Of a stretch of 64,000 nt of DNA, positions 27,630 to 61,228 are shown piece by piece. This DNA comes from Cyathus striatus (lineage: Eukaryota > Basidiomycota > Agaricomycetes > Agaricales > Nidulariaceae). Each line of letters begins with the position of its first letter. Positions within the stretch are counted from its first letter, which is position 1. Both the position numbers and the translations under genes were made by a program. Where the stretch lies: the NCBI GenBank assembly GCA_025738555.1, contig JAOVFP010000008.1, positions 930,001 to 994,000 of the forward strand, given 5' to 3'. Below the pieces are notes generated by a model. The model was not told the origin of the DNA. It did no database searches and worked only from the letters and a program-made list of their open reading frames with translations.

Positions 27630-28049
27630 GTGTCAGCCAATTGTGATCATAAAAAGCCCAGGATTTATGAGTGCTGCAATCATAAAACCAGGGCTTTTTA
27701 TGAGTGCCTCTACTATTATATATTTACTAATGAATTTATGGGTTACTTAATGAATGTAGTGGTGATCATAGGTGATCATAGGTTATTTCAAGTGCATATT
27801 CATATACTATTACTACTAATAGTTTCCAAGGTGATCATAGGTGATCATAGGCTTTTTCAAGTGTGTATTCATATATTATTACTACTAATGATTTTCAAGG
27901 TGATCATAGGTGATCATAGGTCATTTCAAGTGCATATTCACCTATTATTACTACTAATGATTTCCAAGGTGATCATAGGTGATCATAGGTCATTTCAAGT
28001 GTGTATTCACCTATTATTACTACTAATGATTTCTCAGGTGATCATAGGT

Positions 28050-28425
28050 GATCATAGGTCTCACACAGCTGTCACATATATTTGCACGCATCACAGCTGT
28101 CATGCATATTTGCACACATCACATCTGTCACATATATTCACACATGTCACAGCTGTCATGTATATTCGCATGCATCACAGCTGTCACATATATTCGCACA
28201 CATCACAGTTGTCACACATTTGTCACGACGTCACGCACGTCACACACATCGCATTTGTCACACATATGTCACGCTTTTCACACTTTTCACACTTTTCACA
28301 CATGTCACACATGTCACATTTGTCACACTTTGCCCATTTATTATGTATTTGATGAGTGTTACTCTTTTGATTCACATTATCACTCATCATACTCTTTGCA
28401 TATGTTACATTTGTCACTTTGCAGC
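28050..28425 (+). repeat. TGTCACA-rich array, left arm
   Basis: About 30-bp units of the form cacatatattcgcacacatcacagctgt are followed by denser cacacttttcacatgtcacac words. The counterpart in opposite orientation is at 29370-29930. Open frames across it (His/Thr/Cys-rich peptides) are products of the repeat. Confidence 0.85.
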
Positions 28426-28544
28426 TCAGTGATGTAATTTGGCCTTTGATATTGACAACATATCTAAATTTGAAAACTATGTTAAGTAGAACATACTGAG
28501 CAATAGTATGTGCATGAACCACTTTCTGATTCCATCTGAGTAGT

Positions 28545-28630
28545 TATCTGGTTGATCCTGCCAATCTGCCAATAGTCATATGCTTGTCTCAAAGATGAAG
28601 TCATGCTATCTGAGTATAAGTATAAACAAT
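28545..28630 (+). pseudogene. Fragment of the 5' end of 18S rRNA
   Basis: The stretch tatctggttgatcctgcca followed by atagtcatatgcttgtctca and aagatgaagtcatgc is the start of eukaryotic small-subunit rRNA (universal ..ctggttgatcctgcca.. and ..agtcatatgcttgtctcaaagatt..) with a few substitutions and an 8-bp duplication (atctgcca). A later gtataaacaa word also fits. Similarity fades after about 28635. It is far too short to function and sits in the centre of a long-TIR element. Confidence 0.85.
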
Positions 28631-29369
28631 ATATATCAGAGGTGTGAACACATATGGCAGTGTAGAAGTGAAACTGATTGTGACACAATGTCAATAAGAG
28701 TGAAGATAGTTCTCATTACCTCTCTGTATCAGTAAATCAAACTATTATATAGTCATACAGAGTAAGTAGATAAAACTAAATAGCAAGTATTGAAGATATC
28801 ATTATAACCAATAGATCATCTAATAACTGAGATGTGTAAGTTTGATGTGATGTAGAATCACATATTTCACCATTCTTTCACATTTTTTGTCCATGTGTGA
28901 GTCTATTACCATATTGTTTAATATGAACATGCTCAATCCCATGATATAACATTTCTAGTCTTGATTGTAAAATGTCATTGAACTTACATACACACTCTAC
29001 ATATTTCATTCTACTTGCTTATTACTGATACACTTCCATAATGAACTAATTGCCACATCCCATGTCATAACCCCCAATTTAACAGGAGTGGGTTTGTTTT
29101 CTTTGCTTTAATAATGTACTCTGCACTTTTGGATACTTCTAGTCTGAAACAATTTGAACAATGGTATAGATATACAGGTAACCAGACACATGTGATGAGC
29201 TTCTCTCACTAGTGTTAAGTGTTCAGTATATTATAATTCACCTTCCTACTGTGCCTTCAGGCTCCACAAGTGTGAGCAAATGTTGAAAGCAAAATTAAGT
29301 ACACATACTTATAGTTGTTATATCTTGTGTCAAATAAATAAAAAATCAAAAGAGTAACACCCATCAAAT

Positions 29370-29930
29370 ACATGATAGATGTGCAAAGTGTAACAAATGT
29401 AAGTATGTGACATGTGTGAAAGATGTGACACATGCAAATATACATGACAGGTGTGATGTGTGCGAATATATGTGACAGCTGTGACACATGTAAATATATG
29501 TGACAGATGTGATGTGTGCGAATATGCGTGACAGCTATGACACATGCGAATATACATGACAGATGTGACATGTGCGAATATATATGTGACAGCTGTGACG
29601 CGTGTGAATATATGTGACAGCTGTGACTCGTGTGAATATATGTGACAGCTGTGATGCGTGCGAATATACATGACAGCTGTGACGTGTGCGAATATATGTG
29701 ACAGATGTGATGCGTGTAAATATATGTGACAGATGTGACACGTGTGAATATACATGACAGATGTGACACGTGCGAATATATGTGACAGATGTGACACATG
29801 CGAATATACATGACAGCTGTGATGCGTGCGAATATATGTGACAGATGTGACACATGCGAATTTAGGTGACAAACATGAAGCATGGGAAGAATGTGACCAA
29901 TGTGACATTTGCTAATATATATGAGACCTA
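29370..29930 (-). repeat. TGTGACA-rich array, right arm
   Basis: About eighteen 30-bp units of the form tatatgtgacagctgtgacgcgtgcgaa, with ACAGATGTGA and ACAGCTGTGA variants. It mirrors 28050-28425. The long frames on the minus strand (up to 349 codons) only translate this repeat and the TIR. Confidence 0.85.
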
Positions 29931-30242
29931 TGATCACCTTGGAAATCATTAGTAGTAATAATAGGTGAATATGCACTTGAAATGACCTATGATCACCTAT
30001 GATCACCTTGAAAATCATTAGTAGTAATAATATATGAATACACACTTGAAAAAGCCTATGATCACCTATGATCACCTTGGAAACTATTAGTAGTAATAGT
30101 ATATGAATATGCACTTGAAATAACCTATAATCACCTATGATCACCACTACATTCATTAAGTAACCCATAAATTCATTAGTAAATATATAATAGTAGAGGC
30201 ACTCATAAATCCTGGGCTTTTTATGATCAAATTGGCTAACAC

Positions 30243-43899: not shown

Positions 43900-44940
43900 T
43901 GGATATATTATGGAAAGCCGGACAACCATGCTCGACCATGTCAAAATCTTTGAGCTCCGACCTTCGGTGCTTTGGCAGCTCGCTTAGATATTCACTTAGG
44001 GCGCTTGCTGTTCGGACTAGGTTTTCGGTTAACAGCTTAATCGGAATGTACATATATCTAAGTGCTAATGTAAAACATTAGAATGGACTGCCACAGAACA
44101 TAGGTCTTTTGTCATTATGATATGTTATTAATTCAAAAATTACTTGGGATAAAAGAAGAATTAAGTCTCTGATTCAATCACAATAAGTGTAAGCAAAAAT
44201 ACAATTCCTTAGTTTCAAATCTATGTATTCATTTGTCCCTGCAACATTTTTAACAGTGCTCTGAATTGACACTGATCTGAAGCTACAACACTGGGTTACA
44301 TATTTGCAGGTGGTGAATGACTACTAAGAACGACAATTTAGGCAGAGTATAAACAAATACAAATAAAAACAACGAAAGAGCGAACACATTGTGCAATAAG
44401 TGATAATGGACTCATATGTAAGCTTAACTAATAGTCTATATATGTAGTAAGATAGGATACATTTAATTAAGTGTAACATTTATGCTATTGTCAGGTTGTA
44501 CATAATTTAAAATGGTGAATGACTACTGAGGACGACATTTTAGGTAGAGTATAAACAAATACAAATAAAAACAACGACAGAGCGAACATTGTGCAATAAG
44601 TGATAATGGCCTCATATGTAAGCTTAACTAATAGTCTATAGATGTAGTAAGATAGGATACATTTAATTAGGAGCAACATTTATGCTATTGCCAGGTTGTA
44701 CATAATTTAAAATGGTGAATGACTACTGAGGACGACATTTTAGGTAGAGTATAAACAAATACAAATAAAAACAATGACAGAGCGAACATTGTGCAATAAG
44801 TGATAATGGACTCATATGTAAGCTTAACTGATAGTCTATAGATGTAGTAAGATAGGATACATTTAAGTAAGAGCAACATTTATGCTATTGCCAGGTTGTA
44901 CATAATTTAAAATGGTGAATGATGACTGAGGACAACAATT
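43900..44940. repeat. Left inverted repeat with ~200-bp tandem units
   Basis: Outer ~410 bp unique to the repeat, then units beginning aatggtgaatgactactgag at about 44312, 44511, 44711 and 44911 (period about 194-200 bp). Each unit contains gtataaacaaatacaaataa and taagataggatacatttaa. Frames of 62-64 codons on the minus strand are just translations of the unit. Confidence 0.92.
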
Positions 44941-45157
44941 TCAGTGTACATATGTAAAACATTAGAATTAGAATGGCCTATGATGCCATATAAATTTATG
45001 AATATAGGCAATGCAGAATAGTTCAAATTATGATCTGAGAAATTGATTAACAAAATGAGATACTGTAAATTAGTTTCACAAAAGCAATAGGCATTGTATT
45101 ACAGTGTGATCCTAGTTGTATCTATTCGTCCATGTGTTACCTTAACAAGAACCAGAA
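44941..45157. other. Spacer after left arm
   Basis: No gene recognised. It repeats a little of the outer arm (gtacatatgtaaaacattagaat at about 44946-44968 resembles 44050-44075). Confidence 0.4.
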
Positions 45158-47887
45158 TCAACATGGACAAGTGAGCTGAGGTTGGTGACAGATCGGCAGA
45201 TCCTTGTGTATTCTATTTAAATTAAAGGTTAGAAATGCAGTGAACACAATTAATAATGAGTATGCATACTGTATGAGCTCACTTCTTTGAATCAAAAGTC
45301 TTTTTAGGTGTTTTAACTGTTGGAGTGCTGCTAGTACTTGCATGGTTCCCACCTGAGTTCATTGTTACTGCAGAGTTGAAGTGAGTAGGTATATCATAGT
45401 CATCCTGTAGCTACAATTGCTAAGTTGTTAGTACCAATTAAATTCATTTATCAGATTAAACACACCTCAGCATTCTAAATTATCATTAATAAGCATAAAC
45501 TCAACTAAAAATGTAATAAACAGGTGTCTTACCTCCTTTTCAGTGATATAGTCCATATATTCTTCCCATAATGATGCAGGAACGATGAGCCCCAAAATGA
45601 ATGGCTTGGAAGGCATTTTAAAAACACTCTTTTTGTCCTTTCCTCTCCCTTGACCAAGACAACGTGAATAAAAGTATGGCTGGTCTTGTGGCATGAGTGA
45701 AAGATCGGTCCAATTGCAAAGCTCTCGGATTGTAAGTAATTGGGTTTCAAATGGAAACCAATGCATATGCTTCCGAAGTTTGTGTAACATTGTGTCCTCT
45801 ATGATTTTCCTAAGGTCCTGAGGTGTAGCAGATGTGGGTATATTCTGGTGTCCTTCTTGAAGATTCTGTAAAATATATCAGTAATAGGTTCACAACATGG
45901 AACAATTTTGGTACGAACTGCAATCAATTCAGGCTTTGTTTTACTGAAAACCTTGCAGACAGCCTGAACAATAACACTTACAGTTTCACCTTGACATCCC
46001 TGATAACTTAAACGCTGATACTTTTCACGCTCAGTCTTGTAGAGAGCATGTGAACCAGAATAACCAGTGGAAGTGAGCTGACAAGACAGTACATAGCTTT
46101 CACCATTGGAGGACCATGAACTTGGTATACCTACAGTAGGTAAGTGATTACTTGCTGTGGTTGTGCTTGACCATCACTGAAGCGCAGTCGAGGAGGGAAT
46201 GTGACTAGGTAGTTGTGTAACTTTTCATGCAAGAAATTCGGAGTCTAAACAGGATATATTAGAAAAAATAAAATTTTATAAAATTTCTATGCTACCTTTA
46301 CGCTGAGCCTGGTTTACAGAAGATCTGATTGATTGTATGTAAATACCATTAGAGCATACAGCTGATTGACCAGGTTCAGAGCCAAGTTGATCTGCAATAG
46401 CTGGACCTGATATCAAAATTATGAGATGATAAAATGATGATAAGTATGATATACATACAGTTGGGGTCACGCAAACACCACCAATTTTATATCTCAACAA
46501 TGCGAATTTTTGGGCACAAACTGACTTCAGATTCAGAATCAGCAACCTCAGAAACGTCCAAAAACGATGTTTTCGGAAAATTCCCATGAGAAAATGGGTT
46601 GGCCAAAATTTTTGACCAAAAAATTGACATGTTACAGGGTCTAAATCTACCTGAGTCAGGCTATGGACTGTATCACAAACCTATTATGGTATAGGAGGTA
46701 ACTGACAAGTCTCGGGAAACCCAATTTTTGGCTCAAAACTACTCAAATTTATAACTACATACATAATAAGTATGCCCTAACAAGTATTTCTAAAGTAACT
46801 GCCAAACAAAGGACACATATCATGCTGACACATCAGAGGTTGCTGACCAAGTCTGTCAGCCTGGTGCACGCTGACCCCTACAGAGGGTGCTAAATAGTAA
46901 ATGCATTGACAATTGTCTACTCCACTAGTTGTTGCTTTGATATCTTTGATGGGTACCTCAAAGTTGAAAATTGAGTCAATGTTACAAGTTCTCATCAACA
47001 TAGTATTTATAATGAATCTATGACTTGTCAAGAATTAAATAGTTTGTCTAATGTTACTTTAAAGTTTGTAGCAATTAGTATATGATACTACTTGGTTACA
47101 TATATCTTAATAGTATAGTATTCACTTGTAATCTACAAAAGTTTAAGATTTCTGCTGCTTCTACCACAATGTTGCTCAATGGGTTATTTGAGCAAGATTT
47201 AATACATTTTAAAGGATTTTAGGGCATTTTTCATGGTGTATACTATAGGTATGGCCAGTTACTTAGCCATTTTTTAGTGCCGGAACCAGTACTCCGGTGG
47301 GAATTATTTTTACGGAATCATATCTAGATTAATGAAAGGATGCCGAAAATGATTTTTTCGAGATTTTACCTGTTTTTTTTGGCAATGGCCAAATTTTTGG
47401 GTCAAAAATGCAAAAAATCAGTTTGAGCGAAATCGGCTCGTGGAAATCAAAAGCAAACCCTTGAAATATGCTATTCCGATGGTTTTCGGAGGCCAGAAGG
47501 CATTGTGGGTGTGGGAAAAAATCAACCAAAAAAGTTGGTGGTGTTTGCATGACCCCAACTGTACTTATGATTGAATCTGTAGGCGGTTGCGGGTTTGTGC
47601 TAGATAAGCAACTTGCAACATCAGGCCCTAAGTATAAAATGTGTCATAATGAAATAGATGTCAAATATGAATGATTAGAACGTACTCAAAAGTGTATCTG
47701 GTTTCTTTGCATAACACTCAAAGCACTGATCACAGACAAATTTACCATGAGTACCTCCAGTGATATAGTGCTTGCTATCACCAGGATGAAGAATTGTTGA
47801 GCATGTACCTCTGCCACAAGAGATGGACTCGCTTGCATGTGCATCTTCAGTGAATTGTGCGATAGCTTCAGCAGTACCAAAGTTCAT
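45158..47887 (-). CDS. Cys-rich protein of unknown function, MITE in an intron
   Basis: Starts at ATG 47887: AIAQFTEDAHASESISCGRG, then a zinc-binding-like region CSTIL .. GGTHGKFVCDQCFECYAKKP (C-x2-C-x2-C), exon 1 to 47686. Exon 2 (47627-47565) RPDVASCLSSTNPQPP; an intron that contains the MITE 46458-47561; exon 3 (46406-46296) SPAIADQLGSEPGQSAVCSN; later blocks RLRFSDGQAQPQQ, CQLTSTGYSGSHALYKTERE, VVQAVCKVFSKTKPELIA-like and MLHKLRKHMHWFPFETQLLT .. PSKPFILGLIVPASLW (45790-45540), and a final exon near 45158-45352. I recall related proteins in many agaricomycetes but no named domain. One junction (46244-46296) does not keep the frame under the simplest splicing, so the gene may be damaged. 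It is divergently arranged with the integrase gene, sharing a 1-kb spacer. Confidence 0.55.
46458..47561. mobile_element. Mariner-type MITE, complete (1104 bp, TA target)
   Basis: Ends CAGTTGGGGTCACGCAAACA (left) and its reverse complement TGTTTGCATGACCCCAACTG (right), about 27 bp with one mismatch, flanked by TA at 46456-46457 and 47562-47563. CAGT..ACTG ends with a TA target are typical of Tc1/mariner elements. The TA used is the one inside a GTATGT splice donor of the Cys-rich gene. No transposase is encoded; a second copy without its right end is at 4045-4980. Confidence 0.93.
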
Positions 47888-48889
47888 AGTGATAGCTATA
47901 GATAAGCAACAGCGAATAGAGTGGAATAAGGGGTGCTGTGTGAGCTTTAGGATATATCACAGTATTTATATCACTCAGTCAGATCCACAGCTCAAACACA
48001 AAGATAGCAACATAGCATCAACAAGAAAAGATACACAGTAATTTCGGTGCATGTGTATGTTTTAGAATAGCATGTAAGACTCTATGATGGATTATGAATC
48101 ACATAATGTATGTCAACATAAAAAATATTAGTGGTCCCAGTACTGAAACTACTAACAACTGATCACATGCTTGATTGTAATTACTCTTGCTTCGATCTAA
48201 TTAGGAATAGGTCAATGCTTAACAGTACTCAATTGTAATAGTTTGGGATGATTAGAAACACACAGATGCCATGAAATACAAAACAATAACTCTAGGTAAA
48301 GTCAATGAATTACATAGTATATGTCAATGTAAGAGATACTGGTGGTCTTGATTATTTTGATATGCTTCATGGTACTGAAACCATCAAGAGCTGATCATAC
48401 TTGATTACAATGACTCTTGCTTTAATTTAATTACATACAGATCATACTCATTTGTACTATGTGGTTCTAGGTAGAGACATGTGGATGTCTTCAAATACAA
48501 AAATAGAAAGCCAAATGGTAACAGTAATTACTGTTGTAGGGCATGAGGAGAATGTAATAATAATCAATAATCAGTTACATTGTTCAAATGCACAATCATA
48601 CCCTGGGTAGTACATTAATTATAAACAAGACTTGTTATTTATTAAATTTGTAAAGATAGATGGTGATAATTTTACATGTATGATAAGTGTATCTTTACAT
48701 CCATGTGCACATTGTTGTGAAGGACTTACACAAAATCAGTTGATAGAATAAAAATGTCAGAAACATATATTGAACATCTTCCCTATATAATGTTTTACAA
48801 GCTCTACTCTAATCTCCAGTGAAATTATCGACCCAACTCTTTCCCCTATTCACTGTATATCTTTCCTCCACTTATTATCACTGGAAATT
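47888..48889. promoter_or_regulatory. Divergent intergenic region of the two element genes
   Basis: About 1 kb between the Cys-rich gene (minus) and the integrase gene (plus). A diverged tandem duplication is present (about 48100-48205 and 48300-48430, sharing tactgaaac and tgatcat..cttgatt..aatgactcttgctt-like words). A TATATAA box at 48784-48790 lies about 105 bp before ATG 48890 and is followed by a CT-rich leader; gatatatcc near 47950 could serve the minus-strand gene. Confidence 0.5.
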
Positions 48890-50278
48890 ATGGCTAGAAC
48901 TGGCCGCAAAAACCAATATAACCCTAATTGTATATTCAATCATTTTACTTTTTAATGCATGGTATTGATTTTTTTGTAGCACCTCTTGAGGACATTGCCA
49001 CACACATACTCAGGTATTGGAAAATGCACCTTATGGATAAGGTAATACTTCATTACCTGAGGACAAAGCATATGGACTGTACACGCTATGGATTGGGGTA
49101 CATTGTGTCCACTATATGATTATAGCTAGTTGCTTCAGCTTAACTAAATAAATTGTCAGATTAACAAGGTTCATTGAACTGCGTGAGAGTATGGGACTTT
49201 ATCGAACTCGGAAACAAAACCATGGTGTTGAGGATATTCAGCCTGCAATGGTATGCTTGCGTGCTCAGTATCCAAATGCTGGTGCTCGTGAGATGGTCAG
49301 TTTGCTTTTTCATGAAGAAAACATGGCGGTCTCTAGGTATGTTTGACATTCTCAATGATGTTTTTCTCTCTAATTTAAATGCATATGAACTTCAGGCAAA
49401 TAGTTACATCATATTTTGCTCTGTATGAACCAGAGCTCATTCATCAAAGACGAGCACAAAGACTGCGGCGAAAGAGATGGTGGGCAGCAGGTGTTAATGA
49501 TATCATTGCAGTTGACCAGCATGACAAATGGAAATACAAGTTTGGTCTTGCTCTGCATACTGGCATTGACCCATTTGCTGGAAAGATTCATTGGCTTAAG
49601 GTTTGGCATACTAATAGCAACCCTAAGCTAATACTCACCTATTATCTAGATACAATTGAGGAACTTGGTGGTACATTGTTAATTTTCATGTGTGGACCAT
49701 ACTGTACTGAATCAAATAATTGTTTAGCAATGCCTCTAGTTACACAGAGTGACCCTGGCTCTGAAAACTTTGGACTTGCAAATGGACATACATTCCTTCG
49801 TCACAGTCATGATCCTTCACTTCAGGGTACACTCCAACATCATTGGATGCATTCTAAAAAGAATGTCAAGCCTGAGATTACTTGGTCACAGCTTTGTCGA
49901 AGGTTTACACCTGGGTTTGAAGATATTCTTGACAAGGGTATCAATGAAGACATATATCATCCAGATCATACCATTGAAGCATAAGTTATCTCTACTACTT
50001 AAATAATACTAAGACTCATACATTTCTATTATATAGAATGGTATTTCAATGGGCTTTCATTCCTTGGTTGCAGGGGGAACTTGATGGCTACAGGGACCAT
50101 GTTAACAACACTGCAAAATGTGCTGATTGCAACAAAGTATTACCACACAGCATACCCAATGATATTTTTGAGAATCCAAATGAATATGGTGTTTTGGACT
50201 TCAAGGTATATTATATTTTATAGACCTTTTCTGATACTGAGAATACATAAGATACCCAGTACTTTACACTCCCCCCCC

Positions 50279-50460
50279 AGTCCGTCCGGACTCAATATAG
50301 TCCGGATAGTCCGGGTGGAGTCCAGGTGGAGTCCAGTGAAGTCCGGCGGAGTCCGGGTGGAGTCCGGATGGAGTCCTGATGGAATAGATATTGTCCTGAT
50401 GACATCCTGCTGGAATATAAGAAGTCCTGATGGAGTCCTGGTGGAGTCCTGATGGACTTT
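50279..50460 (+). repeat. Left subterminal gagtcc repeats of the KDZ element
   Basis: Repeated words such as gtccgggtggagtccggatg and cctgatggagtcctggtgga about every 10-20 bases. The right counterpart is at about 57725-57990. Such zones are likely transposase-binding sites, as proposed for other transposons with subterminal repeats; this is inference. Confidence 0.8.
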
Positions 50461-50499
50461 GTATTTTTTAAAGTAAGTTCTGTTTAAGACTCCAGGTGT

Positions 50500-50875
50500 A
50501 TTTTCCCACACCTATTGATAACATACTATCTCACTACTACATCTTTGCTACTACTACTATTCTTTACTACATTTTCCCACACTCTTCAGTACATGCTACC
50601 ACTACTATTCTTTACTACATTTTCCTACACCCTTCAGTACATGCTATCACTACTACTCTTTACTACATTTTCCCACACCCTTCAGTACTGATAGCATACT
50701 ATCTCCCTACCACATCTTCCTATGCCTCTTCTACAATATTTTCCCACACCTATTATTCTCCTACCAGATATCTCTGTACTACATTTGTACCACATTTTCT
50801 GACATATCTTCTACCATATTTCCCACACCTATTATTTCTGATGCCTCTTCTACCACATCTTCCAATGCTTCTACA
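50500..50875 (+). repeat. Tandem ~60-bp units inside the KDZ element
   Basis: Three to five units built from cccacacccttcagtacatg and ctaccactactattctttac words, then shorter diverged pieces. The 181-codon frame across it is repeat translation. Confidence 0.75.
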
Positions 50876-50879
50876 ACAG

Positions 50880-53000
50880 ACCATCATCATGTTCAAAATC
50901 TTCACTAATAATACTAAAGTTTTGGCTGTTCTGCTGTTTTATTACTTGTTGAGTATGATAAAAGATCATAGAATGTATGAACCAATTAAAGTTGCTTGGA
51001 GTCATACATTTCATAATAGATTCAAACCCACCAAGCCATGAATTTAGTTGTTCACAGGCTTGTGTATTGAATGCTCATTTGTGATATCTTTCACCATTTC
51101 TGTCTTGTGCAATACAAACAAGGTTTGGTGCAGAACCATCTTGTGGTGCTGGATTACACCACTTTCTACAAAGATAATCATCTGAGCAGTGATTTGTATA
51201 GTGATAGCCATCTACTACAAAGTGGCTACTTTTAAACCAATTTACCCAACTTCCATTTGCAACTGCTGTTCGAAGAAGTTTACATGCCTTATCAATACAT
51301 ATATAATCTGGTCTTAATTCTTCATCAGGAAAAACATCTTCTAAGAACTTAAGTATATTGGTTGTTGACTCCGACTTCACAAACTTTGTCCATGCAATTA
51401 CAGCACCACATGGAGCACATATTGTTTCTACACAATAATAGTGAGAGGCACTAAAATAATGAAATTTCTTTGGAATATTGGTATCTGACTCATCATGAGG
51501 CTGCTGAACATGTCTTCCTTGGTTTTTATTCCAAGGTGGATTTTCAGCTGGTTTGTGAAGCATTCTTTGTGCACCATTTAAATAATCTGAACTATGTTCT
51601 AAATTATATTTATGCCACATTTCCTGGTGCTCATTGCAAGCTTGTGTATTTTCTATCTTTTGATTTTGACAGTCACGAACACGGCATCTTGCTCCAAATT
51701 CTTGGTTGTGAACATCACAAAATACACCTCCTCTATGGTTTACAAGAGTATTGGAACAATTGTCATATGCACAGTGCTTAAAATATGTATTAGTATAATA
51801 TTGTTTAGTTTTAGTTGTGCATTACCTGTGGTCCCATAACAATCCCATCAATTACTACCATTTTAACTGTTGCACTCTCATTTGGTAGTGAGTCTTGAGT
51901 TTCTCTATAAGGCTGTGTACACTCTAAGCAGCTGTGATTATGTGATGCACATATTTTTCCATTTTCACCTAACCTTGCAAATGCTTCTTCTGTTAATGCA
52001 GTAATTGAAAGTCCATCAAGACTAATAAAATTAACACCAGATCCTGCAGAAACCATGTGTATTGATTCATGTATAAAAGCCTCCCAGACTTGTCTTTGGC
52101 TTATTTCCTTTCCATTTCCAAAACTGTTGTTCCAATATTCCATATATGCTGCAGCAGATGCATGAAAGCTATATATACCATTCAGAACACCTTGAGAAAA
52201 TGCCCTATCTACCCATAGTTTTTTTCCTACTTTCAGATATTTAGCAGAGTTTAAATGAACCATATAATATCCCTGTTTTTCATCATAGGCTTGTTCATGT
52301 TCTGCAGAATATAATGTTTTACATTTTTCACAAACACCTGATACTATATAAGCATGTTCAAATATTTTTGAGCCTTTAATTAATGTTGCTTTAGGTACAT
52401 CTCTAACTTTAGTATGCACATGTAGTGCCCGTCCTTTACAGCTCCGTGTCTCACACTCTGCAGCTATAGGACATATTATATGAACAGGATCAATACTAGC
52501 ATGAGATACAGGTTTCAGTTGACCTTCAAAAACTTTCCTCTCCTGATTGAAAAGATACAAGTTCAGAAGTCTTGCCATTTCATTTAATTTAGTGCCTAAC
52601 AAAATAGATCTGCCTGTTCGAGTTGTGTGTTCATTAATTTCATAATCTTCAAAGAGATCATCTGAGTCCATGCCAATTTTTTCCTGAATAGCTCTAGCCA
52701 GTAATCTAATCCATGCAGTTGCATCAACATTTTTTTCTCCTGTTAACTTTGCATTCTGCTGTCTTGCATGAAGACTCAACAAATCAACATTATCAATCAT
52801 AGAGAACAATATAACCAATGTGGCAGAGAGTGTGATATTGGAACCAAAATTTGACAGAATAAATTTACTGAATACATAAAATGTGATGTTAGGAAATGAT
52901 TGTTCTCCTGCTGCAAGTACTGGTTGAATAAAAATAAATAGAACTAGTATTGCACTTGGGAGCTATTGAAATAGCCAAATTATTAATAACCAGAATAAAA
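50880..53000 (-). pseudogene. KDZ transposase (CxC5-CxC6 type), one stop
   Basis: The minus-strand frame begins near 53000 (exact start unclear; LPSAILVLFIFIQPVLAAGE reads into the main frame at 52818). CxC5 part: ETRSCKGRALHVHTKVRDVP, SGVCEKCKTLYSAEHE and NSFGNGKEISQRQVWEAFIH; the later CxC6 part contains HNHSCLECTQPYRE, MVVIDGIVMGPQVM, then, after an intron near 51770-51810, the cysteines C-x-C around 51640-51760. The RNase-H-fold core follows: PDYICIDKACKLLRT (Asp), SHFVVDGYHYTNHCSDDYLC (Asp, His) and AFNTQACEQLNSWLGGFE (Glu). Between these last two, TGA at 51075-51077 replaces a codon (Arg or Trp would fit) in an otherwise continuous frame, which then ends at TAG near 50880. One nonsense change is the only obvious damage. 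Confidence 0.88.
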
Positions 53001-53125
53001 TATGTTGAGTGATTTCTGGCATGAATATAGCCCATATACAGGTTAAGCACCACAGATATGTCTCAAAGATTACCATCCAACTGAAAAATCATATTGTAAA
53101 CTATTACAATTTGAGTTCAATATAC

Positions 53126-55436
53126 TTACTTGCGCTTCTTTGAACTCAATTTCTCTTTATCCTCATGAGCCTTCTCATCCTTACCCCCCTTCTCCTCCTT
53201 GCTCTTTCCCTTTCCCTTTCCCTTCCTTTTCTCCTTCTTCTCCTTAAGCCATCTTTTCAAATCCAAAAATGTGTAGTAATCTCTTTCAAAGCCCCAAAGG
53301 TCCAGATCAGTAGGACTATCCTCATCTTCAGCCAACCAAGACTGCATTGCTGGAAAATCTGCAATCTTATCAAAGTTTGAATAGTTCTCATACCAGGCTG
53401 AAGATGAGACAAAGACTGTGACAATTTCTTTCTTTGTGGCCTTGGCAACTGGCCAAGTCCTGTTCTTGTCCATAGTATTGTGGTCGGAAACTGCCTTTAT
53501 ACGGGCAAGATATCTCTGGTATGCAACTCAAAGTCCAGGTGCAGTGCTCTCAAGAATGTCCCTAGGAATCTTTAGAACATCGATAAGTTCCTCAGTACGT
53601 TACTCTGAGATTCCACCTCTTTGAACAAGAGAAGGGATGTGAGAGCGAGAAACAGCATGAGAGCTAGTTGCAGAGCTTCCAGCTGACTTAGACTGAATGG
53701 AATATGTCTCAATATCAAGGGAGAGTGGTGCATTTGGCTGAAATCCAGACTATAAAGCAACACAATATAAGTAAATAGTACAAGAATAAAAGAATAAAAT
53801 ATATAGCTACACTCAGAATTGGCAAGATAAATTCGCCATCTATCTTTAGCCAGTCGACTTCCTCATCATCCTTGACAGCAGATTCAAAGTTTCCAAGAAT
53901 GTTCCAGGCTTTACTTTCATAAACATACAAACAGTGATCAGCAGCTAAAATGATATTAGTATATGAATAAAATATGAAAGAAAACATACTGAAGAAATGT
54001 TCAGCTCTGTCTTTGAGTTTCTTCAAGACAGGCCCAATGGTTGCCGTAAGATTATGCTTCAATGTAAATGAAGTGACTCCAGGTACCATAACAGTACTTG
54101 GATCTGCATTAGACATATACAGCCATACTCACCCCTTAACTGAACCAATAGTAGTGCTTTCAGTAGCACTGTGGAAGTTGGCAGCATTTGGGTGATTCTC
54201 AAGTGCATTTCCTCTGAGAATGCCACCTACTTAGAGTTAGTACATATATATTTATACAAATTATAGGTTTACCTTCACTCCTTGAAGAACCTTTGGGACT
54301 AATATTGATAATATCCACAGTGTTGACTGTACCTGGCTTACTGATGGTACGAGGTGGACTAACCGGTGGACTATTCATGATAATATCTACCTCTGCAAAC
54401 ATTGAGTCAGTATAAATACAAATATTACTGAAAATCCATACCTTTATCTTTACTAGTCCTGTCTTCTGTATGATTGCTGTTGGACTTGGAAGATACGATG
54501 CTGATATCACTCCCTTTCAAGATCTTAAATACAGTAATACAGTTATAACATTACTGAATTTTTCTTACCTTTATTCTTACTGGTGTGATCTTCTGTATAC
54601 TTTTTGTCAGACTTGAAAGATGTGATGCTAATATCACCTACCATTACTGTGTTCTGATTCATTTCCATGACCTGCATTTGATCCATCAGTTGAACCTTCA
54701 GTATTTTCTGAAATATAACTTGTGTTAGTAAATATATGTGTAAGCTATCAATTCAAACCTTTATTTTCACTTTCATTATTGGTGTCATATCCATCTGATT
54801 CATGTTCTTCTTCAACTGTAGAAGATATAAATGTTTAGATACACATTTTATACATATAAATGAATATTTCTTTACCTTTTTTCATGTCTGAACAGCACTT
54901 ATGAGTAACAGTGAAAACTGGAGCTGCTGGTTGAGGTACATCAGAAGATGGACCCCACTTTGGAGGGGCAACAGGAAGGCCGCTTTCCTCCAGCACCCTT
55001 TCAGCACTAAGTATTATTAGTACATAAATATTGTATAAATATATGTAATACATATGCAGTAAGGTCAGGTACACCTTCTTCATCTGCAGCAGCATCCTCA
55101 GCTCTTTTCTGTTCCGAAGTTTTTCTAAAAAATATTAGCAAGGCAGTGAAAGAAAGTTATGAAACCATACCGAGTTTTTTTGGCTTTCTTGGCTTTTACA
55201 ACTTTTTTACTCTGTTTTTCCTGCACATTTTCACTCTCCTCATTATCTGTAATAGGTTTATTGGTTGTGGCCTGCTTCTTTGTTGGTGGTTGGGCTGTGA
55301 GATCAGCAGCAGAAGTACCACACTTGCGAGATTCGCTACAAGTTTCATGTGTAGCAACTGACAGAGAAGCAGACTCAGTAGGAGTAATACTAGAAGCCTG
55401 AGTTGTAGCAGAGCGAGTGGAACGACGAGGAGCCAT
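53126..55436 (-). CDS. Accessory gene of the KDZ element
   Basis: Begins MAPRRSTRSATTQASSITPT at 55436. Short exons follow: a Lys-rich stretch (KQSKKVVKAKKAKKTR), KTSEQKRAEDAAADEE, LEESGLPVAPPKWGPSSDVP, acidic EEEHESDGYDTNNESEN-like exons, then MVPGVTSFTLKHNLTATIGP, ADHCLYVYESKAWNILGNFE, VDWLKIDGEFILPI and the end part WYENYSNFDKIADFPAMQSW, DSPTDLDLWGFERDYYTFLD, closing with a Lys/Glu-rich tail. Introns of 50-70 bp separate the pieces. A stop near 53602 interrupts one exon in the simplest reading. Its place inside the element, in the same direction as the transposase, suggests a second transposition protein; I know no domain name. The basic tail suggests nuclear or nucleic-acid contact. Confidence 0.6.
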
Positions 55437-55780
55437 TGTGTATAGAAGTGTTAAAATGCTTTGAGATAGCAAGATAGTGGTAGTGGTTGAGGGTTGAGAA
55501 GGAGGGGGGAGGTTGATGCAAACCAAAATCTTACAAGTCTGATGATGCACAGCAATCTCTCATGATCAAAAAATTAAAAATATACAGCCTTTTATAGGCT
55601 ACATTGAACATAACTAAATATATATTACATGTCATTGGCTATACAACATAACTATCTAACTATTTTAAGGAGACACAGCCTTTGATCTTCTTTGGCCCAT
55701 TGACAGCACGCATGAAGACAAAGGGAGAAGGGGGGGAGAGACGGCATGATAGGGGGAAAGGGGACAACAGATGATGGAGA
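55437..55780. other. 5' flank of the accessory gene
   Basis: AT-rich spacer up to the minisatellite; likely promoter of the accessory gene (minus strand). No further gene seen. Confidence 0.4.
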
Positions 55781-57090
55781 CGAGGGGGATGAGGCAGGGG
55801 GAAGGACAGTGTCCTCGTCACTTGCGAGACGAGGAGGTAGCGGAGGAGGGGAGAAGGGGAAGGGGATGGATACTCATCCTCGTCACTTGCAAGACAAGGA
55901 GGTAGAGGCAGAGGGGAGGAGGGCATGGGAGGAGGGGGGGTGACAGGTGGCTCATCCTCATCATTTGCGAGACGAGGAGGGGAAGGAGGAGGGACGAGGA
56001 GAGGGGATGAGGAGGGGGGACAAGTGCTCGTCCACGTCACTTGTGAGACAAGGAGGAGGGGGGATGAGTGCTCGTCCTCATCATTTGCGAGACAAGGCGT
56101 GGGAGGAGGGGGGGACGAACACTTGTCCTCGTCATCTGCGAGAAAAGGAGGGGAAGGAGGGGGTAACGGCTGGCTCATCCTCATCATTTGCGAGACGAGA
56201 AGGGGAAGGAGAAGGGGGGACGAGGGCCAAGCGCTCGTCACTTGCAAGATGAGGAGGGGGGACGAGGAGGAGAGGAGAGGGGGGACAAGCGCTGGTCCAC
56301 GTCACTTGCGAGATGAGGACGAGAGAGGGGGACAAGCGCTGGTCCTCGTCACTTGCAAGACAAGGACAAGGAGAGGGGGACAAGCGCTCATCCTCGTCAC
56401 TTGCAAGACAAGGACAAGGAGAGGGGGGGACAAGCGCTCATCCTCGTCACTTGCAAAACGAGGACAAGGAGAGGGGGAGACAAGCGCAGGTCCTCGTCAC
56501 TTGTGAGACAAGGACAAGGAGGGGGGGAAGAGCACAGGTCCTCGTCACTTGCAAGACGACAAGGAGGGGGGGGACGAGCACTTGTCCACGTCACTTGCAA
56601 GACGAGGATGAGAAGGGGGGGGACAAGCGCTCATCCACGTCACTTGCGAGACAAGGACAAGGAGGGGGGGGACGAGCGCTCATCCACATCACTTGCGAGA
56701 CAAGGACAAGGAGGGGGGACAAGCACTCATCCACGTCACTTGCGAGACAAGGACGAGGAGGGGGACAAGCACTTGTCCACATCACTTGCAAGACGAGGAC
56801 AAGAAGGGGGATGAGTGCTGGTCCTTGTCACTTGCAAGATGAGGATGAGAAGGGGGGGACAGGCACTCGTCCATGTCACTTGCGAGATGAGGATGAGGAG
56901 AGGGGGAACAAGCACTCATCCACGTCACTTGCAAGACAAGGACGAGGAGGAGAGGGGGGACGATATGCTTGTCCTTGTCATTTGCGAGACAAGGAGGCAG
57001 CGGAGCATGCAGGGACGGCAAGCTCGTCATTTGCGAGACGAGAGGCAGGCTGGGAGGGGGGACGGCTGCTCATCCTCGTCACTTACAAGA
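55780..57090. repeat. G-rich minisatellite, ~57-bp units, over 20 copies
   Basis: Units contain ctcgtcacttgcgagacgag or variants, followed by a purine run such as gacaaggagagggggggaca. The unit includes an inner inverted pair (ctcgtc..gacgag), so each could fold into a hairpin, and the G-runs could form quadruplexes. Copies differ by point changes and run length. All frames here (up to 269 codons on plus, 195 on minus) are repeat translations. Confidence 0.92.
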
Positions 57091-57724
57091 CAAGGCAGAG
57101 GGAGGAGGTGAAGGGGTGGTGACTAGACAAGAAGGAGTGAGTGAGTGAGGGAAGAGGGAAGAGGAAAGAGGGAGGAGCAATACTTACCTTTACTGTGTAT
57201 GCGCTCACACACACACCCTCCCTTTCCACTATGGCGCCTGTGCCATTACCACGCATTATCGATCTTGAAGGAAATTGATTGTTGCCTGCTAAGTGTTGGT
57301 GGGGCAACGACGTGGGAAGGGGGCTTGAGGCGACAACATGAGAACGGGGCTTGGGGTGACGACATGGGAGGGGGCTTGAGGCAATGACATGGGAATGGAG
57401 CTTGAGGCGAAGGCACTGACATGGGAAGGTGAGGCGATGACGTGTGAGAGAAAGAGAGAGTGCAGTGGGAAAACTACATGCTATTTTAGGAAAGTGAGAT
57501 ATATGGCTACTATATACCTTACTGACTTAAGAAAATATAAGACCGTTTGGTGTATCAGTATTGTGTACGGTTTCAGTGTTCACGTGACTTGTCCCTACAT
57601 TGCTGGTTCGATTCATGCTGGTTGTAAAATTTTTACTATAGAATATTAAAGGTAACTAACTAGTAATAATAAGTAACTAGTAATAATAAGTAACTAGTAA
57701 TAGAGTAATAGTGAGTACTTGTAA
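57091..57724. other. KDZ element, region between minisatellite and right end
   Basis: Shorter repeats (gacatgggaaggggcttgaggcg units at 57310-57440) and a run of taactagtaataataag units near 57650-57700. No gene recognised. Confidence 0.5.
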
Positions 57725-57990
57725 GTCTGTGTCCGCCTAGTCCAACTGGAGTCCAGGTGAGTTCCGAACGGATTTAGTCTGCCAGAATTCCTGCTAAACT
57801 TGCTGGACTCCAGCTAACGAAAGCATTCCTGGCGGACTCCAGGTGGACTGGAACCAGACTGGATTTGGAAAATTGGGTGGACTCACAGTGAAAATGTGTC
57901 CGCCTGGAGTCTGCCTGGAATCCATGGACTATCTGGAAAATCCTTGAAGTCCGTCCGGATAGTCCGTGGAATCCATGGAGTCCGAACGGA
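57725..57990 (-). repeat. Right subterminal gagtcc repeats of the KDZ element
   Basis: Words such as ggagtccaggtg, ggactccaggtggactgg and gtccgcctggagtctgcctg recur up to the right terminus, mirroring 50279-50460. Confidence 0.8.
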
Positions 57991-58580
57991 ATGGGGGGGC
58001 GAGCGTAAAGACCTCAAGATACCTGTTAAATTGGAGGCCATTCAAGAAGCACACACTTTATTTTCTCCACCTGATCACCCTGTATTTGAGCTTGTCCCAG
58101 AGACATTTTCTGATTTGGCTCAGGACATATATAATCAGCATAACTCATCAACAATTACTAGGAACAATGTGTGGGACATATATTTACTCACTTTGAATGG
58201 TATCTTATTAGACAAAGAAATTCCACATGGTGTTCAGGATATCTGGACAGATATTATCAGGACTTCCTTACGTGAAAATGATACTATTGAGCTATTACCT
58301 GGCCTCTCAGAGTTAGAAGGAGGCATCGAAAATGCTACTGCAGATGGTCTGTACTACATGGGTGGTGTTAACAATGGAAGGGGAATAGGTAAGCAATATA
58401 TTTCAGTTATATATTGTATTTGATTGGATACTCTACCTAGATGAATCCCATTCAGCACAGCTTGATGCTATGATGAATGCTGAAGATCTATTAATCTATA
58501 ATGAGAATGACTTGCCTGAAGTTGAAGTTTCTTTTACTTCTGACGAGGAAGACTCAAGTGATGGGGATGGGACTTGGTGA

Positions 58581-58734
58581 AGGATAGGCTCTGACCTTAT
58601 TGTGTGAATAAAGCAGAAGGCTGTATATTTGGATATAATTAGGCTTCAAATAAATACAGAATTTTTTGCTATGAATTTATTTCTAAGCTGAGTCCACTGT
58701 TACTTATTACACAACATTTCCGCTCCTCTCCTTC
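58581..58734. other. 3' flank of the integrase gene
   Basis: Short AT-rich spacer between the stop at 58578-58580 and the right arm. The word aataaa occurs at 58607 and 58650, suitable for polyadenylation. Confidence 0.4.
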
Positions 58735-61228
58735 TGTTTGTTTGTACTTGTTTATATGTCTACTTTAAACATCGTCCTCAGTAGTCATTCACCATTTTAA
58801 ATTATGTACAACCTGGCAATAGCATAAATGTTGCTCCTAATTAAATGTATCCTATCTTACTACATCTATAGACTATCAGTTAAGCTTACATATGAGTCCA
58901 TTATCACTTATTGCACAATGTTCGCTCTGTCATTGTTTTTATTTGTATTTGTTTATACTCTACCTAAAATGTCGTCCTCAATAGTCATTCACCATTTTAA
59001 ATTATGTACAACCTGGCAATAGCATAAATGTTGCTCCTAATTAAATGTATCCTATCTTACTACATCTATAGACTATTAGTTAAGCTTACATATGAGGCCA
59101 TTATCACTTATTGCACAATGTTCACTCTGTCGTTGTTTTTATTTGTATTTGTTTATACTCTACCTAAAATGTCGTCCTCAGTAGTCATTCACCATTTTAA
59201 ATTATGTACAACCTGACAATAGCATAAATGTTACACTTAATTAAATGTATCCTATCTTACTACATATATAGACTATTAGTTAAGCTTACATATGAGTCCA
59301 TTATCACTTATTGCACAATGTGTTCGCTCTTTCGTTGTTTTTATTTGTATTTGTTTATACTCTGCCTAAATTGTCGTTCTTAGTAGTCATTCACCACCTG
59401 CAAATATGTAACCCAGTGTTGTAGCTTCAGATCAGTGTCAATTCAGAGCACTGTTAAAAATGTTGCAGGGACAAATGAATACATAGATTTGAAACTAAAG
59501 AATTGTATTTTTGCTTACACTTATTGTGATTGAATCAGAGACTTAATTCTTCTTTTATCCCAAGTAATTTTTGAATTAATAACATATCATAATGACAAAA
59601 GACCTATGTTCTGTGGCAGTCCATTCTAATGTTTTACATTAGCACTTAGATATATGTACATTCCGATTAAGCTGTTAACCGAAAACCTAGTCCGAACAGC
59701 AAGCGCCCTAAGTGAATATCTAAGCAAGCTGCCAAAGCACCGAAGGTTGGAGCTCAAAGATTTTGACATGGTCAAGTGTGGTTGTCCAGTGTAAGAGTTG
59801 GGTTAAGGTTTACAGTAGTACATAAGTAGACTTGCTTACATCACCACTCTTTAGTCTTTCTTACCATCATCCCTACGCCTGTGTAGCTAGTTTCTCCCTA
59901 TAGAACTGGTCTTACGCACTTGGGACTGAGGAAGGCTCACCCTGTAGAGGACTACACCTCTACACTTTTTTGCGTAGCCTGCTATAGGCTGCCAGCTGCC
60001 AGCGTTAGGCTGGTCTCACCCAACTCTTATCTCCAACCCTTTGTGAGAGGTTCTCTGACCTCTTACCTTCTGGCTCTGCAGTTCTAGTGCTCAACAGCAT
60101 TTGTGGCTTTCCTGGGTTGTTCATTGGAGGATTCTCTTGGGGTTTTCAGGCTGTGTAGGAGGTGATCATATGATGGTTGGGCCATATCTCGGGATCGAAG
60201 GCACGTATTCGCATGGTTGTTTTTGCGTTCGACTCTACTCGTCGATACGTTTCCATCGCCCCCTCATTCATCCCGATCCGACCACTCCTTGGCTCACCAT
60301 CGCCGTCGACATCCCCCACGATGTTCGGACAGTCTCGGATCCAGTTCCGATTCGTTCCGCTCGCTCTTTTGGGTGTGCGTAGCCCTCGTTCAGACCTTTC
60401 CGAGGACTCCTTACGCGTCACGCTACGACGCCTGGATCGTGCGCTATCGCATTTTTCGTCGACACCTCCATTCCTTCTACCACCCCCCATTCCTATCCCC
60501 TATTCAGCCTCTTTTGCACCGTTATCCCAGCACCTGGATACTCAGCTGGGTCCCTATTGCACCCTATCACTGCTGGAGCCTTGTTCATCTCGGAGATCTG
60601 TGTTGTATTCGCATTCCCCTTCATTTCTGGTGATACCGACCTCATATCACTACCATCACACTCCTTCGACACAAACTCTCTCTTCAAAATATCTCCTATG
60701 TGCCTCTCTTTGGTTGGTCTATGTTATTGAGGAGGCCTTGGTTGTTAGCATGGGTGGTCCCTACACGCCTGGACAGTCTATGAGAGGCTGTTTCTCGAGC
60801 AGGCCTTGGTTGTTAGCCTATATGTGGTCCCTACGCGCCTCGCATGGTCACCTTGTTGGCTCTGCCTAGTATTTGGTGGGGGTGAGGCCTTGGTTTGTGA
60901 TTGTTGAGGGTGTTTCTCCTAGGTTTTTGGTGGACTTTTGGATGGTTGCTCTAGGTAGTTTCCATCCATCCTTTCCTTTGGCTCTCTCCAGGTGAGATTG
61001 AGCCCCCTGGGATCAATCTAGTAGGGGAGTATGTAAGAGTTGGGTTAAGGTTTACAGTAGTACATAAGTAGACTTGCTTACATCACCACTCTTTAGTCTT
61101 TCTTACCATCATCCCTACACCTGTGTAGCTAGTTTCTCCCTATAGAACTGGTCTTACACACTTGGGACTGAGGAAGGCTCACCCTGTAGAGGACTACACC
61201 TCTACATCCAGCTTTCCATAATATATTT
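58735..61228. repeat. Right inverted repeat (interrupted by TRIM)
   Basis: This is the inverted counterpart of 43900-44940. Tandem units recur at about 58782, 58984, 59184 and 59386 (gtcattcaccattttaaatt), followed by the unique outer ~400 bp up to 59789; the last 17 bases (gctttccataatatat) resume at 61211 after the TRIM. Confidence 0.92.
59790..61206 (+). mobile_element. TRIM retroelement, copy 2 (complete, TSD TCCAG)
   Basis: LTRs 59790-59964 and 61032-61206, each 175 bp, TG..CA, with TCCAG at 59785-59789 and 61207-61211. The two LTRs differ at only two positions, both CG in the left and CA in the right copy. A purine tract tagtaggggagta precedes the right LTR. The interior is nearly identical to copy 1 (16432-17848, opposite orientation): the 114- and 138-codon frames are unchanged, and the 230-codon frame differs at a few residues. 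No gag or pol is present, so movement depends on another element's enzymes. Confidence 0.95.

Follow-up and report, generated by a model that had tools for sequence, protein, structure and literature searches.

A probable nest of mobile elements in Cyathus striatus: a candidate CxC5/CxC6 DNA transposon inside an IS3EU-type transposon

Nested elements in the window

We analysed a stretch of 64,000 nucleotides (C8:930001-994000, hereafter the window) of the Cyathus striatus genome (107.45 Mb, 24 contigs), in which long inverted arms bound a segment containing an integrase-core gene and a cysteine-rich CxC5/CxC6 gene. This segment is very probably a nest of mobile elements, comprising an outer DNA transposon of the IS3EU superfamily, an inner, independent CxC5/CxC6 DNA transposon and two further insertions (Table 1). 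The original prediction, made from the sequence of the window, had read the segment as one DNA transposon with two genes. That reading holds for the arms with the integrase-core gene, which are multicopy in the genome, and fails for the cysteine-rich gene, which lies in a separate insertion.

Twenty stretches around matches to the left arm were taken from the host genome for comparison. In all fetched copies in which both flanks aligned (four of four informative copies: L009, L010, L018 and L022), window position 50256 ran straight into position 58016, with an overlap of 8 bp. The integrase of L010 read across the insertion site with a short intron. The empty sister copies, the 8-bp duplication, the integrase 3' part beyond the insertion and the L010 intron together indicate that segment 50257-58015 entered an integrase intron at a later time. 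Pairs of the terminal inverted repeats (TIRs) of this inner element were also found elsewhere in the genome, and 11 of the 18 other pairs had a perfect 8-bp duplication.

The CxC5/CxC6 element

The CxC protein of the window matched PF18718 (E 1.7e-24) and PF18721 (E 3.5e-12), which were present in 54/54 and 53/54 of its relatives, respectively. Its gene has an in-frame TGA (51075-51077) immediately before AFNTQACEQLN. For gene B, read as the second gene of the inner element, the exon at 53126-53527 was tested and is probably joined to an exon starting at 55436; two public relatives were found, one of them a hypothetical protein of Flammula alnicola. Among loci of other CxC subfamilies, L041 and L040 (57-58% identity in the CxC6 part) had similar left ends (CAGTACTTTACACTC and CAGTACTTTGCACTC); their right ends and 8-bp duplications were not found within the stretches examined, and no ends were found for L027. 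A search of viral contigs for the CxC family gave no match.

In this genome, CxC5/CxC6 proteins look like DDE transposases of a TIR transposon of their own, with 8-bp duplications. We tentatively suggest that they may be the transposases of an unrecognised eukaryotic DNA transposon superfamily that is widespread and high-copy among mushrooms and underlies the sporeless mutation of Pleurotus. The hallmarks of such a superfamily would be 8-bp duplications, ends of the form CAGTACTTTA in the Cyathus genome and a zinc cluster inserted into the RNase-H fold behind its first strand. No description of CxC5/CxC6 elements as TIR transposons was found in the open-licence literature of PubMed Central (PMC), in which passages of PMC12062965 deal with CxC7.

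Whether the inner element is instead a divergent branch of the Kyakuja-Dileera-Zisupton (KDZ) transposons, which would be compatible with the nested arrangement, is evenly balanced in our judgement. The names of the CxC domains, currently catalogued as clusters 'associated with KDZ transposases', point to KDZ, and cysteine clusters are shared. The 8-bp duplication of the inner element is common to Zisupton and Zisupton-1_PGr, a Dileera, as given in passages of PMC12730594. On the other hand, PF18758 (KDZ transposase), with 159 matches elsewhere in the genome, was not among the 25 listed of the 26 families for the 54 CxC proteins. Profile similarity was not significant: hhalign gave E 0.079 and 0.19 against 20 KDZ pieces combined; against split KDZ groups, from which L078 and L091 were excluded, E was 0.14 for 13 pieces and 0.034 for 5 pieces. 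The main KDZ group had no useful match to the CxC profile, with 45/150 shuffles scoring as high. The distant KDZ-like group (E 0.034) aligned collinearly with the CxC core over 114 columns at 24% identity, and none of 150 shuffles reached ≥100 aligned columns, yet 7/150 shuffles scored equally high. This distant group (L092-L096) reached 27.8-30.1 bits to PF18758, and its D..H..E pattern was collinear with the CxC5/CxC6 core. The 8-bp duplication would also fit hAT transposons; no hAT model occurred among the same 25 families. A sequence search of the PDB with either the integrase or the CxC alignment gave no meaningful match.

The insert of sporeless Pleurotus

Sporeless Pleurotus ostreatus has its MSH4 gene disrupted by a multicopy insert of 6,792 bp with a CxC5/CxC6 open reading frame (ORF) of 739 amino acids (PMC7641404). 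The passages of that paper on the insert report a microsatellite cluster with a BC5NWY signature; no KDZ element was reported nearby, and the authors suspected Copia and noted co-localisation with Copia long terminal repeats (LTRs). The Copia association was restated in a passage of a 2025 paper (PMC12568894). A P. ostreatus protein of 740 amino acids (P0085) was a member of our CxC5/CxC6 family and, from its length, domains and species, is probably the ORF of the MSH4 insert.

The insert was compared with the inner element by its published description. Both hold a CxC5/CxC6 gene, and the passages on MSH4 name neither TIRs nor a duplication. The G/C-rich minisatellite of the inner element recalls the microsatellite cluster reported in the insert. 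The inner element suggests what the unexplained 6.8-kb insert may be, as the two look like the same kind of element. The reading of the MSH4 paper, in which CxC5/CxC6 stretches owe their movement to Copia retrotransposons or travel with them, is very unlikely: co-localisation with Copia LTRs was reported in P. ostreatus (PMC7641404), but the inner element has TIRs with 8-bp duplications and no LTR at its ends.

The outer element and its copies

The inverted arms (43920-44953 and 58754-59787; 1034 nt) were 98% complementary, and a 200-bp unit was repeated in tandem 3.1 times in one and 3.3 times in the other, in agreement with the arms of about 1.05 kb and terminal units of about 200 bp originally described. 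The predicted outer limits, 43900 and 61228, lay at most 10 bp from the ends found, 43909 and 61220. A 401-bp query comprising left arm and edge had at least 41 matches across the host genome, including the window's own two, a number that chance would not produce. In paired copies, homology broke off at TATGGAAAGC...GCTTTCCATA, i.e. TATGG...CCATA. A perfect 6-bp target-site duplication was present in seven of nine paired copies (window ATATAT, L009 GGGGAG, L011 ACAAAC, L012 GAGGAG, L015 CATGAA, L016 CGACAT and L017/L018 CAGAGG) and absent from L013 and L014. Five further integrase loci (L029-L033) were examined, two of which had the same ends as the outer element of the window (L029, 7,242 bp with CTAAAG duplication; L030, 7,328 bp with CACAAG duplication); in L031-L033, these ends were not found within the stretch examined.

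The TIRs measured 316-867 bp in nine copies. Six short copies (L011-L016; 1.6-4.1 kb) had kept the arms and gave no match to integrase, kinase or CxC, as non-autonomous relatives of the outer element would. The arms of L011 were 100% identical across 867 bp, which suggests that this copy moved recently. The size of the arms alone would speak for a segmental inversion or duplication, an explanation of negligible probability that is refuted by the same arms with 6-bp duplications at seven of nine paired copies and by the six copies with arms and no genes.

The integrase-core gene is the transposase of the outer element. PF24764 was found in 42/46 of its relatives, the D/D/E residues were conserved, and a fold match to a DDE integrase-like transposase was also obtained. 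At window positions 49980-49990, L010 and L018 have a GT splice donor. The window and L009 read AT there, through a change of CG to CA, and L022 has yet another form.

The true divergent partner of the integrase is an alpha-kinase gene. Genome-wide, an alpha-kinase match lay within 15 kb of 37/43 integrase loci, against 0.8 expected under uniform placement, and all 37 neighbours were upstream of the integrase on the opposite strand. The window's own kinase is not among the 37 because the part that gives the match has been lost. The minus-strand gene begins at 47887, and about 1.2 kb present in L009, L010 and L018 is missing at a junction near 45173-45178; these 1.2 kb contain an ORF with an alpha-kinase match (in L009, 20.8 bits and E 4.5e-4 to PF02816, just below the cut-off of 21.3).

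That the integrase and the cysteine-rich gene are partners in a single Ginger-like transposon, as originally predicted, is highly improbable. Both genes do lie between the same inverted arms, the integrase on the plus strand and the cysteine-rich gene on the minus strand, but they are convergent (48890-50205, then 52962-51075) rather than divergent, and the segment is not limited to these two, also holding the integrase 3' part, the alpha-kinase remnant, gene B exons, and TIR and LTR elements. Copies of the cysteine-rich gene, bounded by ends of its own, occur elsewhere, and the empty junction 50256/58016 in L009, L010, L018 and L022 places the window's gene in an 8-bp-flanked insertion missing from these sister copies, which refutes a single element. 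In a count covering 150 of 567 candidate CxC places, a CxC6 match lay within 15 kb of 2/43 integrase loci, the window among them, against 1.8 expected, so the two genes occur in substance independently; uniform placement of all 567 places would give about seven. The true count is at least three, since L017/L018, with a CxC match 5.5 kb from the integrase, was not among the 150 compared. This outer copy (C14:2359194-2375520) thus also contains a CxC match, a point for the single element, but its interior matched a different CxC5/CxC6 subfamily with 66-79% DNA identity. Nesting of the two kinds of element is therefore not unique to the window.

Classification of the outer element

Ginger1 transposons have 4-bp duplications and TGT ends. 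They have an integrase-like DDE transposase in common with the outer element, in which neither their duplication length nor their ends were seen; Ginger1 is ruled out by the 6-bp duplication and TATGG ends. The relation to Ginger proposed in the original prediction gives way to IS3EU on account of the 6-bp duplication, the TATGG...CCATA ends and the divergent alpha-kinase.

IS3EU elements in general have 6-bp duplications and TA..TA termini, as set out in passages of PMC12730594 and PMC10045372. For fungal IS3EU, passages of PMC12730594 (2025) give 6-bp duplications, TAYGG..CCRTA ends and TIRs >30 bp, and, in TET-containing elements, transposase and alpha-kinase in opposite orientation. The outer element agrees in duplication, ends (TATGG..CCATA), TIR length, integrase-like DDE transposase and opposite-strand alpha-kinase. 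Because ends, duplication length and gene order fit the published description, we regard it as a new member of this known superfamily. It differs in its TIRs of 0.3-1 kb, with 200-bp tandem units in the termini of the Cyathus family. In the fungal elements described in these passages, a TET/JBP gene lies between transposase and kinase (PMC12730594); none was seen by eye in the short integrase-kinase gap of the outer element, and a genome search with PF12851 (TET/JBP) gave no match but was uninformative, as its positive control gave none either. GingerRoot, which groups with IS3EU in passages of PMC10045372, has an integrase-like DDE transposase, 6-bp duplications and mostly TA..TA ends; the outer element shares these features.

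Further insertions and neighbouring repeats

The 1.1-kb TIR element within the alpha-kinase gene was missing from L009, L010 and L018. Its TA duplication was read by eye from the edges, and its ends are Tc1/mariner-like. The LTRs of the short element in the right TIR were identical at 173/175 positions; this element is TRIM-like (terminal-repeat retrotransposon in miniature), being too short for a polymerase gene. Outside the nest, tandem arrays of 69-bp and 28-bp units mirror each other at window positions 27761-30145, with one set at 27761-28234 and the other at 29415-30145. The second set is apparently reverse-complemented, and the arrangement possibly marks a further element whose termini contain tandem units.

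Table 1. Features of the nested elements in the window
Feature	Position	Strand	Remarks
Outer element, IS3EU-type DNA transposon	43909-61220	+	three later insertions inside
6-bp target-site duplication of outer element	43903-43908 and 61221-61226		ATATAT
Left TIR	43909-44953	+	200-bp unit repeated about three times in tandem (44311-44941)
Alpha-kinase gene remnant	45467-47887	-	by-eye reading: Cys-containing N-terminus plus middle exons
1.1-kb TIR element	46458-47561	.	CAGTTGGGGTCAYGCAAACACC ends, TA duplication; within alpha-kinase gene
Integrase-core (DDE) transposase, 5' exons	48890-50205	+	motifs VDQHDKW, SDPGSEN, KPEI
8-bp target-site duplication of inner element	50249-50256 and 58016-58023		AAGATACC
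Inner element, CxC5/CxC6 DNA transposon	50257-58015	+	7,759 bp; ends CAGTACTTTACACTCCCCCCCC / GAGGTCTTTACGCTCGCCCCCCC
CxC5/CxC6 protein gene	51075-52962	-	read as transposase of inner element
Gene B	53126-55436	-	upstream of and collinear with CxC gene
G/C-rich minisatellite	55798-57122	.	in inner element; arrays listed 55798-56997
Integrase 3' exons	58019-58580	+	IPVKLEAIQEAH... to ...SDGDGTW stop; cut off from 5' part by inner element
Right TIR	58754-61220	-	pieces 58754-59789 and 61207-61220, LTR element between
Short LTR element	59790-61206	-	175-bp LTRs, 5-bp duplication CTGGA; in right TIR

Proposed history and implications

Directly observed were the ends and their duplications, the sister copies that lack the inner element, the gene pairings, and the domain and fold matches, for which the Foldseek list was less one-sided than the VIA list. 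We propose that the DDE integrase-core transposase of the outer element, if catalytically active, binds the long TIRs, with the 200-bp units perhaps serving as repeated binding sites, and that the element moves as DNA by cut-and-paste, leaving 6-bp duplications. The divergently transcribed alpha-kinase would be an accessory gene, destroyed in the window copy. The CxC5/CxC6 protein is predicted to be itself a DDE/RNase-H-like transposase with a zinc-cluster insertion, perhaps with a role for gene B, and the inner element would have integrated into the intron of the outer transposase gene with an 8-bp duplication. The Tc1/mariner-like TIR element and the small LTR element would have landed in the outer element too.

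The tempting pairing of integrase and cysteine-rich genes is corrected, as integrase-core genes in this genome accompany alpha-kinases. CxC5/CxC6 genes would become identifiable as the transposase genes of distinct TIR elements, and what makes commercial oyster mushrooms sporeless can be tested directly at the junctions of the MSH4 insert.
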